Source of the DNA: an uncultured Anaerolineae bacterium
GTDB taxonomy: Bacteria > Chloroflexota > Anaerolineae > Anaerolineales > Villigracilaceae
Assembly (NCBI GenBank): GCA_903910795.1
Contig: CAIWAX010000115.1
Coordinates: forward strand, 1-50,023
DNA: 50,023 bases
Direction of reading: 5' to 3'
The number at the start of each line of letters is the position of its first letter. Position 1 is the first letter of the stretch. Under the pieces are notes generated by a model that saw only the letters and a program-made list of their open reading frames with translations, made no database searches and was not told the origin of the DNA. Both the position numbers and the translations under genes were made by a program. Shown here one piece after another: positions 26,665-31,872 of this stretch.

Positions 26665-26712
26665 AAAATCATAAAAATGGGCCGGCGTATGCCGGCCCAT
26701 TTTTATGATTTT
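26665..26712. terminator. Bidirectional terminator hairpin
   Basis: aaaatcataaaaatgggccggc-gtat-gccggcccatttttatgatttt, between convergent genes. Confidence 0.85.
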
Positions 26713-26742: not shown

Positions 26743-28713
26743 TTAATGCTCTATGCGCGGGTAGACCCAGGGCGCCTGATCACCAGTGGGAGATCCGTTG
26801 GTGCCAATGGCAAGGATAAAGTTACCGGTCTGTCCAACCAGTGATGTAAGGGGGATATCAATAGCGCGAGTCAGCCCAACGGGAGTATCAAATTTTTCGC
26901 CATAATCTGCGATCGTATAAAGCGTGCCGCCACTGGCTCTGAAATACAGCCAGAATTTCACATTACAATCGGGATATCCAGACCTGCAGCCAATGCGGGC
27001 TTTGAAACGATCTCCGCTCTGGACTGTGTAGGATGGATAGGTTCCCTGAATTAACCCATCGGTAATATTTTGTGGAACCATCATCAAAGATGGGTTACTG
27101 TTATAAGTAACGCCGTCTTCAAGCTGTACACTTGCCAGCTTGTAAGCATAGCCCGCATCACCCGAAGTGCTGCCAAAGGTTAATAAAGCGCCTGAACCAT
27201 TTTTCCACTCAGCCAATTCAGGGTGAGCGGTAAAGTCAAAACCACCGGTGATGGGTGTAGCAGTGCTGGAAGGCGTGCTGGTTGGGGTTGGCGAGGGTAC
27301 AGGAGTGCCCGGGGTAACTGGGGTGGAAGTTGGTGCGCTGGCGCTCACTGCAATATCAACCCACCAGGCTTTATCAGCATGATAGCCGATGCCAAAGAGA
27401 TTACCGCTCGCATTTTTCAATTGCCAGTAACCGCGATAGGATCCGGATGTGGCAGGTGAAGTCAGGGGGACTGATATATTAAAAGAAGTATTCGGACCAA
27501 CGGTCGATGTCAGGTTGGTGGGGCTGGAACCGCCCATCTGATTACCGCTGACAAAAACCAGTTGATAGCTGGTGGTCCAAGTGCAGGTGCCAATGTTCTT
27601 GATACGCCAGGTTTTGGTAAAGGCTGTGTTAGGCGCAAAGACAGTACCGTCCGGCACGTTTATATCCGAAATAAAAGTAGCATGATCACAATCGACACTG
27701 GGAGGCGGGGGCGGAGTAACGGGGGGAGGCGGAGGCGGTACAACCAGGCCACCGTTTGTAATACGCGGGGCACCCCACAGCGCGCGGTCGCCATCTGCAT
27801 AACCAGCCGAACCAATATACAGGATAAATTTGACATCCTGACCTGCCAGCGCTGACAGGTCAAAATTGGCGCGATAAAACAGGCCATCATAGCGCTCAGA
27901 ATAACTCCAGAAGGTCTGAACCGGGCCGCTGCCAATTTGGTAATTCAACCGGAAATTGACAAAACAAGATGTGGCGTTGTACTCGCAATTAACAATTGAT
28001 TGGAAGTGATCACCGTTTTGAACATGATAAACAGGGTATTGACCCTGGATATATCCGTTATATACTCTTTGTGGAACCGTTAACAAACCCGGGGCGGAAT
28101 CTGTTGTACCGTTCTCGAGATGAGGGGCCGCGATGGTGTAAGCAAAACCATTGTCGTTGCCTTCGGCTCCTGGGAACAGCAAACTGCCAGCGCCGCTTGT
28201 CCAGGTGGCAGAGCCAGCATTGGCGACAAAATCGTAGCCGGTTGAACTGCCAGGCGTGCCAGATACAACAATCTCAACCCAAAAAGATTTATCTGCAGTT
28301 GAGCCGATGCCAAACATCACACCGCCTGCATCCTTTAGCTGGAAATTCCCCCGGTAAGTACCTGCGGAGCCTGGGGCTGTCAGGGCAACTGTCAAGTCAA
28401 CTGTATTGCCTGGAGCTACACTGGCAGGCAGGCTGGTTGTGGCCGGCGCGCCCATCTGGGTGCCATCCACGTAAACAAGCGTATAACTTGTCGACCAGGT
28501 ACAGGTGCCCACATTCATAATGCGCCAGGTCTTACTAAAAGTAGCTCCAGCTGCATATATTGTGTCATCTGGAACGGTAACATCAGCCACAAATTGGGCC
28601 GCGTTACAGGTTGAAAGAGCAGCAGCAGGCTGGGGTACTGAAATGAAACTGACCATCATAACCACCAGCAAACAAACTGCAAACAGTCTGTTCTTATTCC
28701 AATTCGGTTTCAT
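26743..28713 (-). CDS. Secreted protein with two NBR1-like (four-tryptophan/N_BRCA1_IG-like) domains, each followed by an uncharacterised beta-rich domain
   Basis: Signal peptide; repeats of FxxDxxxPDxTxxxxxxxFxKTWRIxNxGTCTWxTSYxLVxVxGxQMG... twice; Pro/Thr linkers. ATG at 28713 preceded by aaaggagaatcag. Confidence 0.8.
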   Translation of the reverse strand: MKPNWNKNRLFAVCLLVVMMVSFISVPQPAAALSTCNAAQFVADVTVPDDTIYAAGATFSKTWRIMNVGTCTWSTSYTLVYVDGTQMGAPATTSLPASVAPGNTVDLTVALTAPGSAGTYRGNFQLKDAGGVMFGIGSTADKSFWVEIVVSGTPGSSTGYDFVANAGSATWTSGAGSLLFPGAEGNDNGFAYTIAAPHLENGTTDSAPGLLTVPQRVYNGYIQGQYPVYHVQNGDHFQSIVNCEYNATSCFVNFRLNYQIGSGPVQTFWSYSERYDGLFYRANFDLSALAGQDVKFILYIGSAGYADGDRALWGAPRITNGGLVVPPPPPPVTPPPPPSVDCDHATFISDINVPDGTVFAPNTAFTKTWRIKNIGTCTWTTSYQLVFVSGNQMGGSSPTNLTSTVGPNTSFNISVPLTSPATSGSYRGYWQLKNASGNLFGIGYHADKAWWVDIAVSASAPTSTPVTPGTPVPSPTPTSTPSSTATPITGGFDFTAHPELAEWKNGSGALLTFGSTSGDAGYAYKLASVQLEDGVTYNSNPSLMMVPQNITDGLIQGTYPSYTVQSGDRFKARIGCRSGYPDCNVKFWLYFRASGGTLYTIADYGEKFDTPVGLTRAIDIPLTSLVGQTGNFILAIGTNGSPTGDQAPWVYPRIEH

Positions 28714-28955
28714 TCTGATTCTCCTTTGAAAATTCACAACTTCACTCGATGTGCCCATAGCTACCAGCGAATAGTACAAAAGCTTAAAACATAAATTGCA
28801 ACTTCGCTATTTAGAAACATTAATATCATTATATACTGTTTTTGCGTTACACGAATACCTTAAATGAGTAAAATCATCAGAAAATCAAACAAATTAAATC
28901 AAATCCGGCTTTTTTTCAAATCATTGCCCTGCAATTTAAAAGCTCAAACCGAGGA

Positions 28956-29462
28956 TTACTTCACCTCTAGCGTGCCATTGAAGAATGAAACATTGATCGC
29001 AGTTCCTCTAGAATTGGAGAAAATTGCGCCATCCGGGGCAGCTTGCGTTTTATGGAAATTAATCAGAGCCTGGCCCTTTTCTTTAGCGCGAAATACAATC
29101 TCCAGCAATGTACCGCTTCCACTGGCTGGGGAGCCTGCAATTTGCGCCACCGCATAATCAAGCGTACCGTTAGTATTGTCAAAAGTGTTTTGGACAACAT
29201 AATCGGCCTTAACGAAACCACCATTTTTCAATTGCACCACTTCCAGTCTGGCCGGATCAAAAGATAGATGGATTTCCATTGCAATCAGGTCGGAGATATT
29301 CTCAACTTTTACGGGGATTGTGATGGTATCGTTGACGGTAACAGGAGCAGCCTGCGTATCAATCTTGAGAGCAGTGCTCGAACCAGCACAGGAAGTTAGT
29401 ACAAAGATACCTGAAATAGCCAAAAAAACCAGCTTATTCCAAAACAAAGAAACTTTGAGCAC
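28956..29462 (-). CDS. Cohesin-domain lipoprotein
   Basis: Lipobox VLTSC; cohesin-like IPVKVENISDLIAMEIHLSFDPARLEVVQLKNGGF...GTLLEIVFRAKEKGQALINF. GTG start. Confidence 0.75.
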   Translation of the reverse strand: MLKVSLFWNKLVFLAISGIFVLTSCAGSSTALKIDTQAAPVTVNDTITIPVKVENISDLIAMEIHLSFDPARLEVVQLKNGGFVKADYVVQNTFDNTNGTLDYAVAQIAGSPASGSGTLLEIVFRAKEKGQALINFHKTQAAPDGAIFSNSRGTAINVSFFNGTLEVK

Positions 29463-29476
29463 GCGCTACCTTCAAA

Positions 29477-29520
29477 TCAGCGCGCCAGAAAAGTGGGTTT
29501 TCCACCGCCTGGCGCGCTGA
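29477..29520 (-). terminator. Hairpin upstream of the cohesin lipoprotein gene (terminator or leader structure)
   Basis: Perfect 12-bp stem tcagcgcgccag / ctggcgcgctga with an internal gtgg/ccac stem; ends about 14 nt from the GTG start. Confidence 0.55.
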
Positions 29521-29583
29521 AATTATTAATTTAGCACTTTCATTTGCAGATTTCACTCTAAAACTACAGACGCTATTTGAGGC

Positions 29584-30705
29584 CTATGGTATGCACAATC
29601 GCTGCCCAACATAGATCAATCGCGGATTGGAAAGATGATTGGCGCTGGCAACCTGCGCATAACTCGTACCATACCTTACTGCAATATTATAGAGTGTATC
29701 GCCTCTTTGAACAGTGTAGTAATACCGGCAGCCTGTTTGGGCGCTCGTAGGAGCGGGAGTCACAGAAATTGGAGTTGCCGTAACGCCAGGAACAGCCGTA
29801 GGAGTCGGCGTGAGAATTGGTGAGCTGGTTGAAAATTGGGCAGGACAGATATTACCAGCAGGGATAGGCGACCAGGGTATATTGGGGATCAGGAGGGCCT
29901 GGTTGGGGAAAATAATATACGGCCACCAGATACCATTCGTGCTGGCAATCGCCCAGGGTGAAACCCCATAAGCTCTACCAATGCAATAGAGCGATTCCCA
30001 TAAACGTACAACATGCGTACCCAGAATGGCTCCATTAGGCGACGGCGAAGGGACGGGTGTCGAAGTGGGCAGGCCTGGAACTGGGGTAGCGGTAGGCGGC
30101 GCCGGTGTGACTGGCGTTGAGGTGGGGGTGCCCGGCCCTGGAGTAACCGGGGTCGCTGTCGGCTGCGATGGCGTGGCAGTAGAAGGCACCTGAGTTCCAA
30201 CGGTAACGCTGCCATTCGACCAGGAGGTCAGTATGGCGACCCCGTTCGCGTCTGACAATATCAAGCCGCTTGGAGATGCCTGCGTAGCGCGCAAGGTCAG
30301 GTTTGAACTTCCATTGGCCTTGGCATGAAATGTGATATTCAACAGAGCGCCGCTTCCCTGAGCAGTGGGGCGATTCATTTGGGCAATTGCGTAATCAATT
30401 GTGCCAGCGGCATTATTAAAGATGTTCTGCGCAACAAAATCAGCCACAACAAAACCACCGTTTGTTATCTGGGTCACTTCCAGTATTGAAGGGTTATAGG
30501 CCAGGTGCAATTCAACTGCAGAGAGATTCGATACATTATCAACTTTTACGGATAAAGTAAAAGTGTTATTTATTTGTACTGCTGTCACAGCCGGATCAAC
30601 CCTTACAACGGTGCCCCCCTGGGCAAAAGCCGATGTGCCCACCATTGAGCCAGTTATGACCATCATCGCAAGAAATATTCTCAAAATTGTCCAGTTACGC
30701 TTCAT
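29584..30705 (-). CDS. Secreted cohesin-LysM protein
   Basis: Signal peptide; cohesin domain (LSVKVDNVSNLSAVELHLAYNPSILEV); Pro/Thr linker; LysM-like regions, the second canonical (YYYTVQRGDTLYNIAVRYGTSYAQVASANHLSNPRLIYVGQRLCIP). Confidence 0.85.
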   Translation of the reverse strand: MKRNWTILRIFLAMMVITGSMVGTSAFAQGGTVVRVDPAVTAVQINNTFTLSVKVDNVSNLSAVELHLAYNPSILEVTQITNGGFVVADFVAQNIFNNAAGTIDYAIAQMNRPTAQGSGALLNITFHAKANGSSNLTLRATQASPSGLILSDANGVAILTSWSNGSVTVGTQVPSTATPSQPTATPVTPGPGTPTSTPVTPAPPTATPVPGLPTSTPVPSPSPNGAILGTHVVRLWESLYCIGRAYGVSPWAIASTNGIWWPYIIFPNQALLIPNIPWSPIPAGNICPAQFSTSSPILTPTPTAVPGVTATPISVTPAPTSAQTGCRYYYTVQRGDTLYNIAVRYGTSYAQVASANHLSNPRLIYVGQRLCIP

Positions 30706-30750
30706 CTGTAACTCCTTATCAAGATTTAATGATTACCATCCTCTTCAAGA

Positions 30751-30795
30751 AAAACGCTGCTCATCCACTGTTCTTCAACGAATGAGCAACGTTTT
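30751..30795 (-). terminator. Hairpin between the dockerin and cohesin-LysM genes
   Basis: aaaacgctgctcat / atgagcaacgtttt inverted repeat downstream of the 30805-31872 gene. Confidence 0.6.
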
Positions 30796-30804
30796 CAATC
30801 AGTT

Positions 30805-31872
30805 TTACGGGGTTGTACTCCAGATGGTTGGGCCAACCTTGCCCCAGTTTCCTGCAGCAATCGCCAGATCACTGATGTTGATCACTCCGTCATCATTCAC
30901 ATCGATGGGATTGTCAGCAATACTTGGATTCGCACAATTTGCTACAGTAGAACCCACAGCAGCGCCTGTTTGGCCAAACTTGCTGATAATGGTGCCAATA
31001 TCCAGGATATTGATGGCATTATCATTATTGACATCGCCACCGCGCAGGCTGGTAGTTCCAATATCGAAAACCTGCGCATTACTCGCAACCACAACACCTG
31101 ATTTCTCAGATGGCAAGTAGCCCGGATATGTTGCCCGGAAGGTGTATGTGCCAGCAATGATATTGAATATACTAAAAGCGCCGGTTGTGTCAGTGAACGA
31201 AGGGCCATAATTCGATGGGCCCGATGCCGTGACACTGGCACACTTCAAAGTACCGCCACCCGGGTTCGGGTTTCCAGGTGTTCCTTGACGTAGAACAGTA
31301 CCGGTGCCCCTGGCACTGACCACTATATTCACACAGACTGGCTGAACCGTTCCAACATCAACTCTGAAACCATCTGCATCCACCAGGGTGGGTTGATTAA
31401 TATAAAAGCACTGCTGTCCCTGGTTCAGGCCAATGAAGTGGAATCGCACCGCCACACCAATCTGATTAACTTGCGGAGGACCGGCCAATACGAGGTGAAT
31501 ACAGGGCAGGCTGCCACCAGCCGGCAAACATTGAGCAGCCGGCAACACTTCATTAATACTCACGGTCGAAACACCAAAGAAATCCGGCCGGATTTCTGCG
31601 GCAGTAGTACCCGGCGTTGTGGGTGGCGTTACATTTTTATCATTGAAAGATAAATAAATCTCGGCGCCGCCAACACCCGGGTTGATATTAGCAACAGAAA
31701 AAACCAGATTAAAAGTAACTTCCTGGCCGATGCCAATTGTAGGTGGATTAGGAGTATCAAAATACATTGTGGCAGAGCGAGCTACTTGAAGAGGCGCCGC
31801 TCCCACAGACACCGCTGGCAAAGCCAGCGATAGAACAAGCACGATCGTGAATAACCATTTATAAATTTTCAT
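30805..31872 (-). CDS. Secreted protein: cohesin-like N-terminus, carboxypeptidase-regulatory-like middle, C-terminal type I dockerin
   Basis: Two dockerin Ca-binding repeats GDVNNDNAINILDIGTIISKFG and IDVNDDGVINISDLAIAAGNWGK; signal peptide. Confidence 0.85.
   Translation of the reverse strand: MKIYKWLFTIVLVLSLALPAVSVGAAPLQVARSATMYFDTPNPPTIGIGQEVTFNLVFSVANINPGVGGAEIYLSFNDKNVTPPTTPGTTAAEIRPDFFGVSTVSINEVLPAAQCLPAGGSLPCIHLVLAGPPQVNQIGVAVRFHFIGLNQGQQCFYINQPTLVDADGFRVDVGTVQPVCVNIVVSARGTGTVLRQGTPGNPNPGGGTLKCASVTASGPSNYGPSFTDTTGAFSIFNIIAGTYTFRATYPGYLPSEKSGVVVASNAQVFDIGTTSLRGGDVNNDNAINILDIGTIISKFGQTGAAVGSTVANCANPSIADNPIDVNDDGVINISDLAIAAGNWGKVGPTIWSTTP

Follow-up and report, generated by a model that had tools for sequence, protein, structure and literature searches.

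What might cohesins, a dockerin and LysM repeats accomplish at a cell surface when the genes encoding them lie side by side and none of the products carries a recognisable catalytic domain? This question is raised by four open reading frames (ORFs) that adjoin on the minus strand at positions 26743-31872 of the window, the 50,023-nucleotide stretch analysed here (contig C115 of genome G000, from an uncultured Anaerolineae bacterium), with the coordinates assigned by the first-pass annotation. Non-cellulosomal cohesins and dockerins have been known for decades, to our knowledge without a defined job. Pfam profile searches recovered the cohesin (in two genes), dockerin, LysM and two NBR1-like domains proposed in that annotation, and returned no match to a catalytic family in any of the four proteins, as it had also noted. 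Its central idea, that a wall cohesin and a membrane cohesin constitute two anchors serving something other than cellulose degradation, is well supported at sequence level by the conserved gene order, the co-occurrence of the genes, the two clades formed by the cohesins and the exchange of the client protein.

The reading that we favour, with a probability of about 0.68, is that of a minimal, self-contained, non-cellulosomal cohesin/X-dockerin surface-anchoring cassette that has one socket in the wall and another at the membrane. In layout it looks like a scaled-down plug-and-socket anchor of a cellulosome, with one plug and two sockets, and it appears to serve surface proteins instead of cellulases. 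In it, the secreted dockerin protein would dock through its X-dockerin onto either of the two cohesin sockets, probably in a calcium-dependent manner in both cases. The wall socket would be a cohesin retained by two LysM domains on the cell's own wall, and the membrane socket a lipid-tethered cohesin lipoprotein. The payload would be the module preceding the X-dockerin, namely a cohesin-fold domain in the window and, in two relatives, a metzincin protease combined with leucine-rich repeats.

The dockerin protein and its two candidate sockets

The dockerin protein (30805-31872, 355 amino acids, on the minus strand as are all genes and domains described below) comprises a signal peptide, a cohesin-like N-terminal domain (DocN, 31315-31788), an X module of the CarboxypepD_reg-like kind (31045-31311) and a dockerin (30808-31044), a trimodular layout that the first-pass annotation had missed. 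Pfam identifies both the dockerin (Dockerin_1, E-value 1.9e-5, 25.2 bits over a cut-off of 22.9) and the X module (CarboxypepD_reg, 1.6e-7). The dockerin contains two calcium-binding repeats, GDVNNDNAINILD and IDVNDDGVINISD, whose Asp/Asn calcium ligands show little or no variation in an alignment of 14 orthologues. The X module directly abuts the dockerin, and the profile matches solved type II X-dockerins across both modules, with E-values of 5.9e-12 for 4u3s_B (template modelling score, TM-score, 0.72 by target) and 7e-12 for 2b59_B, and with 4wi0_B, 3kcp_A and 5g5d_B as further matches. Taken alone, the dockerin domain scores much the same against dockerins of type I and of type II.

DocN lacks a Pfam match and finds no significant match in a PDB sequence search, though alignment with our cohesin profile by hhalign (probability 96.5, E-value 8.7e-10) and the predicted fold both place it in the cohesin superfamily, in line with the cohesin-like N-terminus claimed for this protein beforehand. 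Two conserved cysteines form a pair of its own. The whole protein was modelled with a predicted local distance difference test score (pLDDT) of 81.9 and a predicted TM-score (pTM) of 0.64, and the best PDB match of this model by Foldseek is 3kcp_A, the cohesin-X-dockerin end of CipA (E-value 4.8e-19 over 342 columns), at a TM-score of 0.36 that makes the relative orientation of the modules unreliable. Profile and fold hence predict a cohesin-X-dockerin trimodule with an adaptor-like layout, in which DocN is divergent in sequence.

The proposed wall socket is a 373-residue protein (29584-30705) with one cohesin (30193-30621) and two LysM repeats (29884-30018 and 29587-29721), for which Pfam gives E-values of 2.5e-11 and 3.8e-27, respectively; its cohesin is also identified by PDB sequence match and fold search, its LysM repeats recur in orthologue loci, and its orthologues are 51-57% identical to it. 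The proposed membrane socket is a 168-residue protein (28956-29462; Cohesin, 7.7e-16) whose lipobox, LTSC, identifies it by sequence as a lipoprotein, the lipobox cysteine (Cys25) being invariant in 10 of 10 orthologues. Both cohesins lie well above the curated cut-off of PF00963 (59 and 44 bits against 24.1). A maximum-likelihood tree calculated from 29 cohesins has a single branch (support 100/99) that parts the lipid-anchored from the wall (LysM) cohesins, and the simplest reading of this split is an early duplication that gave rise to wall and membrane versions, both of which appear to have been retained since.

Among PDB chains the cohesins match 4u3s_A, 2b59_A, 5g5d_A and 3kcp_B, so that within the solved complexes 4u3s, 2b59, 5g5d and 3kcp the X-dockerin corresponds to one chain and the cohesins to the other. 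The comparison with type I pairs made in the first-pass annotation is not the right one, as the X-dockerin dyad is of type II style and the cohesins, by sequence, score better against type II ScaB of Acetivibrio (49 bits) than against type I (36.6 bits). A type II assignment of the cohesins would nonetheless be tentative, since non-cellulosomal and type I cohesins rank first in the fold search, with the non-cellulosomal Archaeoglobus cohesin 2xdh as best match (TM-score 0.81 by target). A read-through fusion model of X-dockerin, intergenic stretch and cohesin, with stops replaced by serine, left the dockerin unfolded (pLDDT about 45, pTM 0.47) and has no bearing on docking.

LysM domains are described to bind peptidoglycan and chitin (PMC5817068), and the cohesin-LysM protein might serve adhesion, its LysM domains gripping foreign cells or debris by their peptidoglycan or chitin-type glycans while the cohesin-dockerin pairing links these to the membrane lipoprotein. 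The presence of a separate membrane-anchored cohesin and the proximity of several cassette copies to surface-polysaccharide genes would fit such a role. Nonetheless, only one dockerin per protein is available for both cohesins, bridging wall and membrane would need one more point of contact, supplied either by DocN or by a dual-binding dockerin, and no feature specific to external glycans was found in the cassette; adhesion is, on balance, rather improbable.

The three-gene cassette among relatives

The relatives recovered by homology search belong to Chloroflexota, mostly Anaerolineae. In the core loci the same order is kept on one strand, namely the dockerin protein, a protein with one or two cohesins followed by two LysM repeats, and the cohesin lipoprotein; the contigs of three genomes (G137, G117 and G011) end within the cassette. 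At a threshold of E below 1e-45, 14 of the family's 152 genomes have these cohesins; every one of them is among the 16 genomes with the dockerin gene (hypergeometric 5.5e-18, a value that ignores relatedness), and each encodes at least two such cohesins. Carriers are patchily spread over five genera. Flanking genes are shared only within small related groups (G125/G153/G154/G158/G151 and G116/G119/G117, plus a single gene for G163/G173), and the cassette occurs in about nine distinct genomic surroundings within the stretches compared. Because the order is kept, the genes co-occur and the surroundings differ, the dockerin, cohesin-LysM and cohesin-lipoprotein genes appear to act as one conserved, travelling unit.

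The same conservation bears on whether the locus could be a functionless remnant of a lost cellulose-degrading complex. Its domains are indeed cellulosome domains, and no dockerin-bearing glycoside hydrolase was found in the fragmented genome of the organism. Against it, conservation across genera at 50-60% identity extends to the reading frames, the calcium ligands, the lipobox and the set of three genes, and this explanation, already disfavoured, retains a nearly negligible probability. The cohesin lipoprotein frame of G006 is likewise open and is overlapped by an antisense ORF.

Two observations weigh against a single self-contained unit. G151 and G158 possess the dockerin gene without a detected cohesin, both genomes being incomplete and the gene lying at a contig end. 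In addition, a 20-bp hairpin (30751-30795; -26.1 kcal/mol, z -5.0), whose 3' arm runs into a U-run, separates the dockerin gene from the cohesin-LysM gene; its sequence suggests a possible terminator or attenuator, which makes a single transcript doubtful, and the dockerin and socket genes may differ in transcript level or form separate transcripts. The G+C-rich hairpin between both cohesin genes (29477-29520; intergenic region z -5.0) is similarly strong, z being about -5 for each, and only the former has a U-run.

The fourth gene encodes an NBR1-domain protein (26743-28713) with two N_BRCA1_IG domains (4.9e-51 by Pfam, with matches also to solved NBR1/ILRUN domains), its most likely start being the ATG at 28713, 3' of an AAAGGAG-like site, and not the TTG at 28779. 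After each of the two NBR1 domains comes another conserved domain, some 165 residues long and without Pfam match (residues about 155-320 and 490-655). Contrary to the first-pass annotation, which had counted this protein in the cluster, it was rejected as a fourth component: it is a generic family, with homologues in 148 of the 152 family genomes, it is absent from the conserved core loci, and only in the window does its gene adjoin the cassette, so that it is best regarded as a neighbour outside the unit. A strong bidirectional terminator is predicted at the end of the region (26665-26712), and the flanks of the cluster are ordinary, with an EngA-type GTPase gene and an impB/mucB/samB-family DNA polymerase gene. 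Several other cassette copies (L103, L108, L110, L113, L045 and L047) adjoin surface-polysaccharide genes, encoding UDP-glucose dehydrogenase, an epimerase, a flippase, glycosyltransferases and an ABC-2-type exporter, and the window copy does not.

Client exchange and the role of DocN

In two genomes, G163 and G173, the slot of the dockerin gene is occupied by genes for proteins of 1132 and 1150 residues with, in this order, a metzincin-type protease, additional stretches without assignment, an X-dockerin and leucine-rich repeats (L111 6265-9663 and L112 4086-7538, respectively). The metzincin assignment is based on the motif HEMGHGFGLPH, of the HExxHxxGxxH form, and on weak Pfam matches below cut-off. 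Their X-dockerins are of the same subtype as that of the window and 56-57% identical to it, and this swap supports the view of the X-dockerin as an anchoring tag. Elsewhere in the class, the proteins that carry an X-dockerin include a subtilase, a VWA protein and a beta-helix protein as well as PKD or fibronectin-type proteins; their genes often adjoin cohesin genes and sometimes cohesin-LysM genes. The cohesin-LysM protein of G006 (L047 2731-4365) carries, in turn, a copy of DocN inserted between its two LysM repeats. Such domain exchanges, as read from the sequences, are the traces expected of a tag-and-socket system. Separately, three proteins of 1905-1908 residues (L158 3673-9390, L160 10023-15749 and L161 6657-12383) adjoin cohesin-LysM genes and end in cohesin-X-dockerin-cohesin C-termini, making them possible chain-forming clients.

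In the window, DocN would be either the payload or an additional socket. The second option leads to an alternative that makes the protein a genuine monovalent adaptor scaffoldin, bound to the anchors by its X-dockerin and recruiting through DocN another dockerin protein encoded elsewhere in the genome, so that the cassette would be the base of a larger complex. Consistent with it are the homology of DocN to cohesins detected by hhalign, the resemblance of the trimodular fold to the CipA end, the existence of monovalent adaptors of such layout as a recognised class (PMC11557425) and the further dockerin proteins of the same genome, on contigs C221 and C129. However, the sequence of DocN is far from those of dockerin-binding cohesins, with neither a Pfam nor a significant PDB match and with a conserved cysteine pair of its own; the other dockerins of the genome differ in subtype, that on C221 being adjoined by its own cohesins; and a protease takes the place of DocN in G163 and G173, so that the slot does not depend on a cohesin. 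Altogether, the adaptor role is a real but clearly less probable possibility than the cassette with a docked payload.

A bolder variant would have the dockerin protein polymerise head to tail, the dockerin of each copy entering the cohesin-like domain of the next, to build a pilus- or sheath-like fibre with its base held by both sockets. We regard it as a long shot; were it true, it would represent a cohesin-dockerin fibre without link to polysaccharide degradation.

Counting across the organism's own genome yields three dockerins, none with a recognised catalytic domain, in a fragmented assembly of 496 contigs, whose ends truncate several cohesin proteins. Beyond the window, the dockerin and cohesin regions include L010 (contig C221, 3-2604) and L013 (contig C129, 3-3655). 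A second cluster encodes an X-dockerin-type protein and two cohesin proteins whose C-termini resemble membrane helices, and two further dockerin-type proteins are of a subtype differing from that of the window.

Relation to known anchoring systems

The closest parallel to the favoured cassette is type II anchoring, in which CipA/ScaA binds to SdbA, OlpB or ScaB-type proteins in Clostridium thermocellum and Acetivibrio cellulolyticus. There too an X module directly precedes the dockerin and the cohesins sit on cell-surface anchors, and the two sides of the cassette match both chains of the same solved complexes. On the contrary, type II anchors use SLH domains while those of the cassette would rely on LysM domains and lipid, and the cassette consists of three adjacent genes without a cellulase, a CBM3 or a multi-cohesin scaffoldin, each anchor of the window having a single cohesin and those of the orthologues no more than two. 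By analogy, the cassette would thus resemble the anchoring end of a cellulosome in its working, without being a cellulosome.

A 2024 survey of cellulosome bacteria names monovalent adaptors, as well as Lysin motif and transmembrane-helix (nonSLH) anchors, as classes (PMC11557425), and the layouts of a single cohesin with a dockerin and of a cohesin with a Lysin motif are shared with the cassette. Those classes were nonetheless defined on the genomes of cellulosome producers, mostly Bacillota, in which glycoside hydrolases carry dockerins, and the cohesin-like domain of the adaptor-like protein is divergent here. Sortase- and SLH-based attachment are considered the typical anchoring modes in a recent review (PMC12484212), and natural LysM-cohesin fusions in Chloroflexota were not found in the open-licence literature. 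Non-cellulosomal cohesins and dockerins exist in other lineages, including anaerobic methanotrophic (ANME) archaea (PMC9012536); Archaeoglobus fulgidus, source of 2xdh, and the ANME archaea likewise have few of them, outside cellulose degradation. The ANME systems differ in displaying variable clients and S-layer links (PMC9012536), and a cassette of dockerin, wall cohesin and lipid cohesin is not described in the literature searched.

What appears to be new is therefore the conserved three-gene pairing of wall and lipid sockets with one X-dockerin partner in Chloroflexota. Being small (three proteins), self-contained and conserved, the cassette makes the question of a non-cellulosomal role for cohesins and dockerins directly testable, and it offers a compact display tool. 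If our reading is correct, paired genes for a lipid-anchored and a LysM-anchored socket would join the routes by which bacteria display proteins, and the replacement of the payload by a protease argues that secreted proteins in general could dock at this port, in a bacterial class that is large and mostly uncultured.

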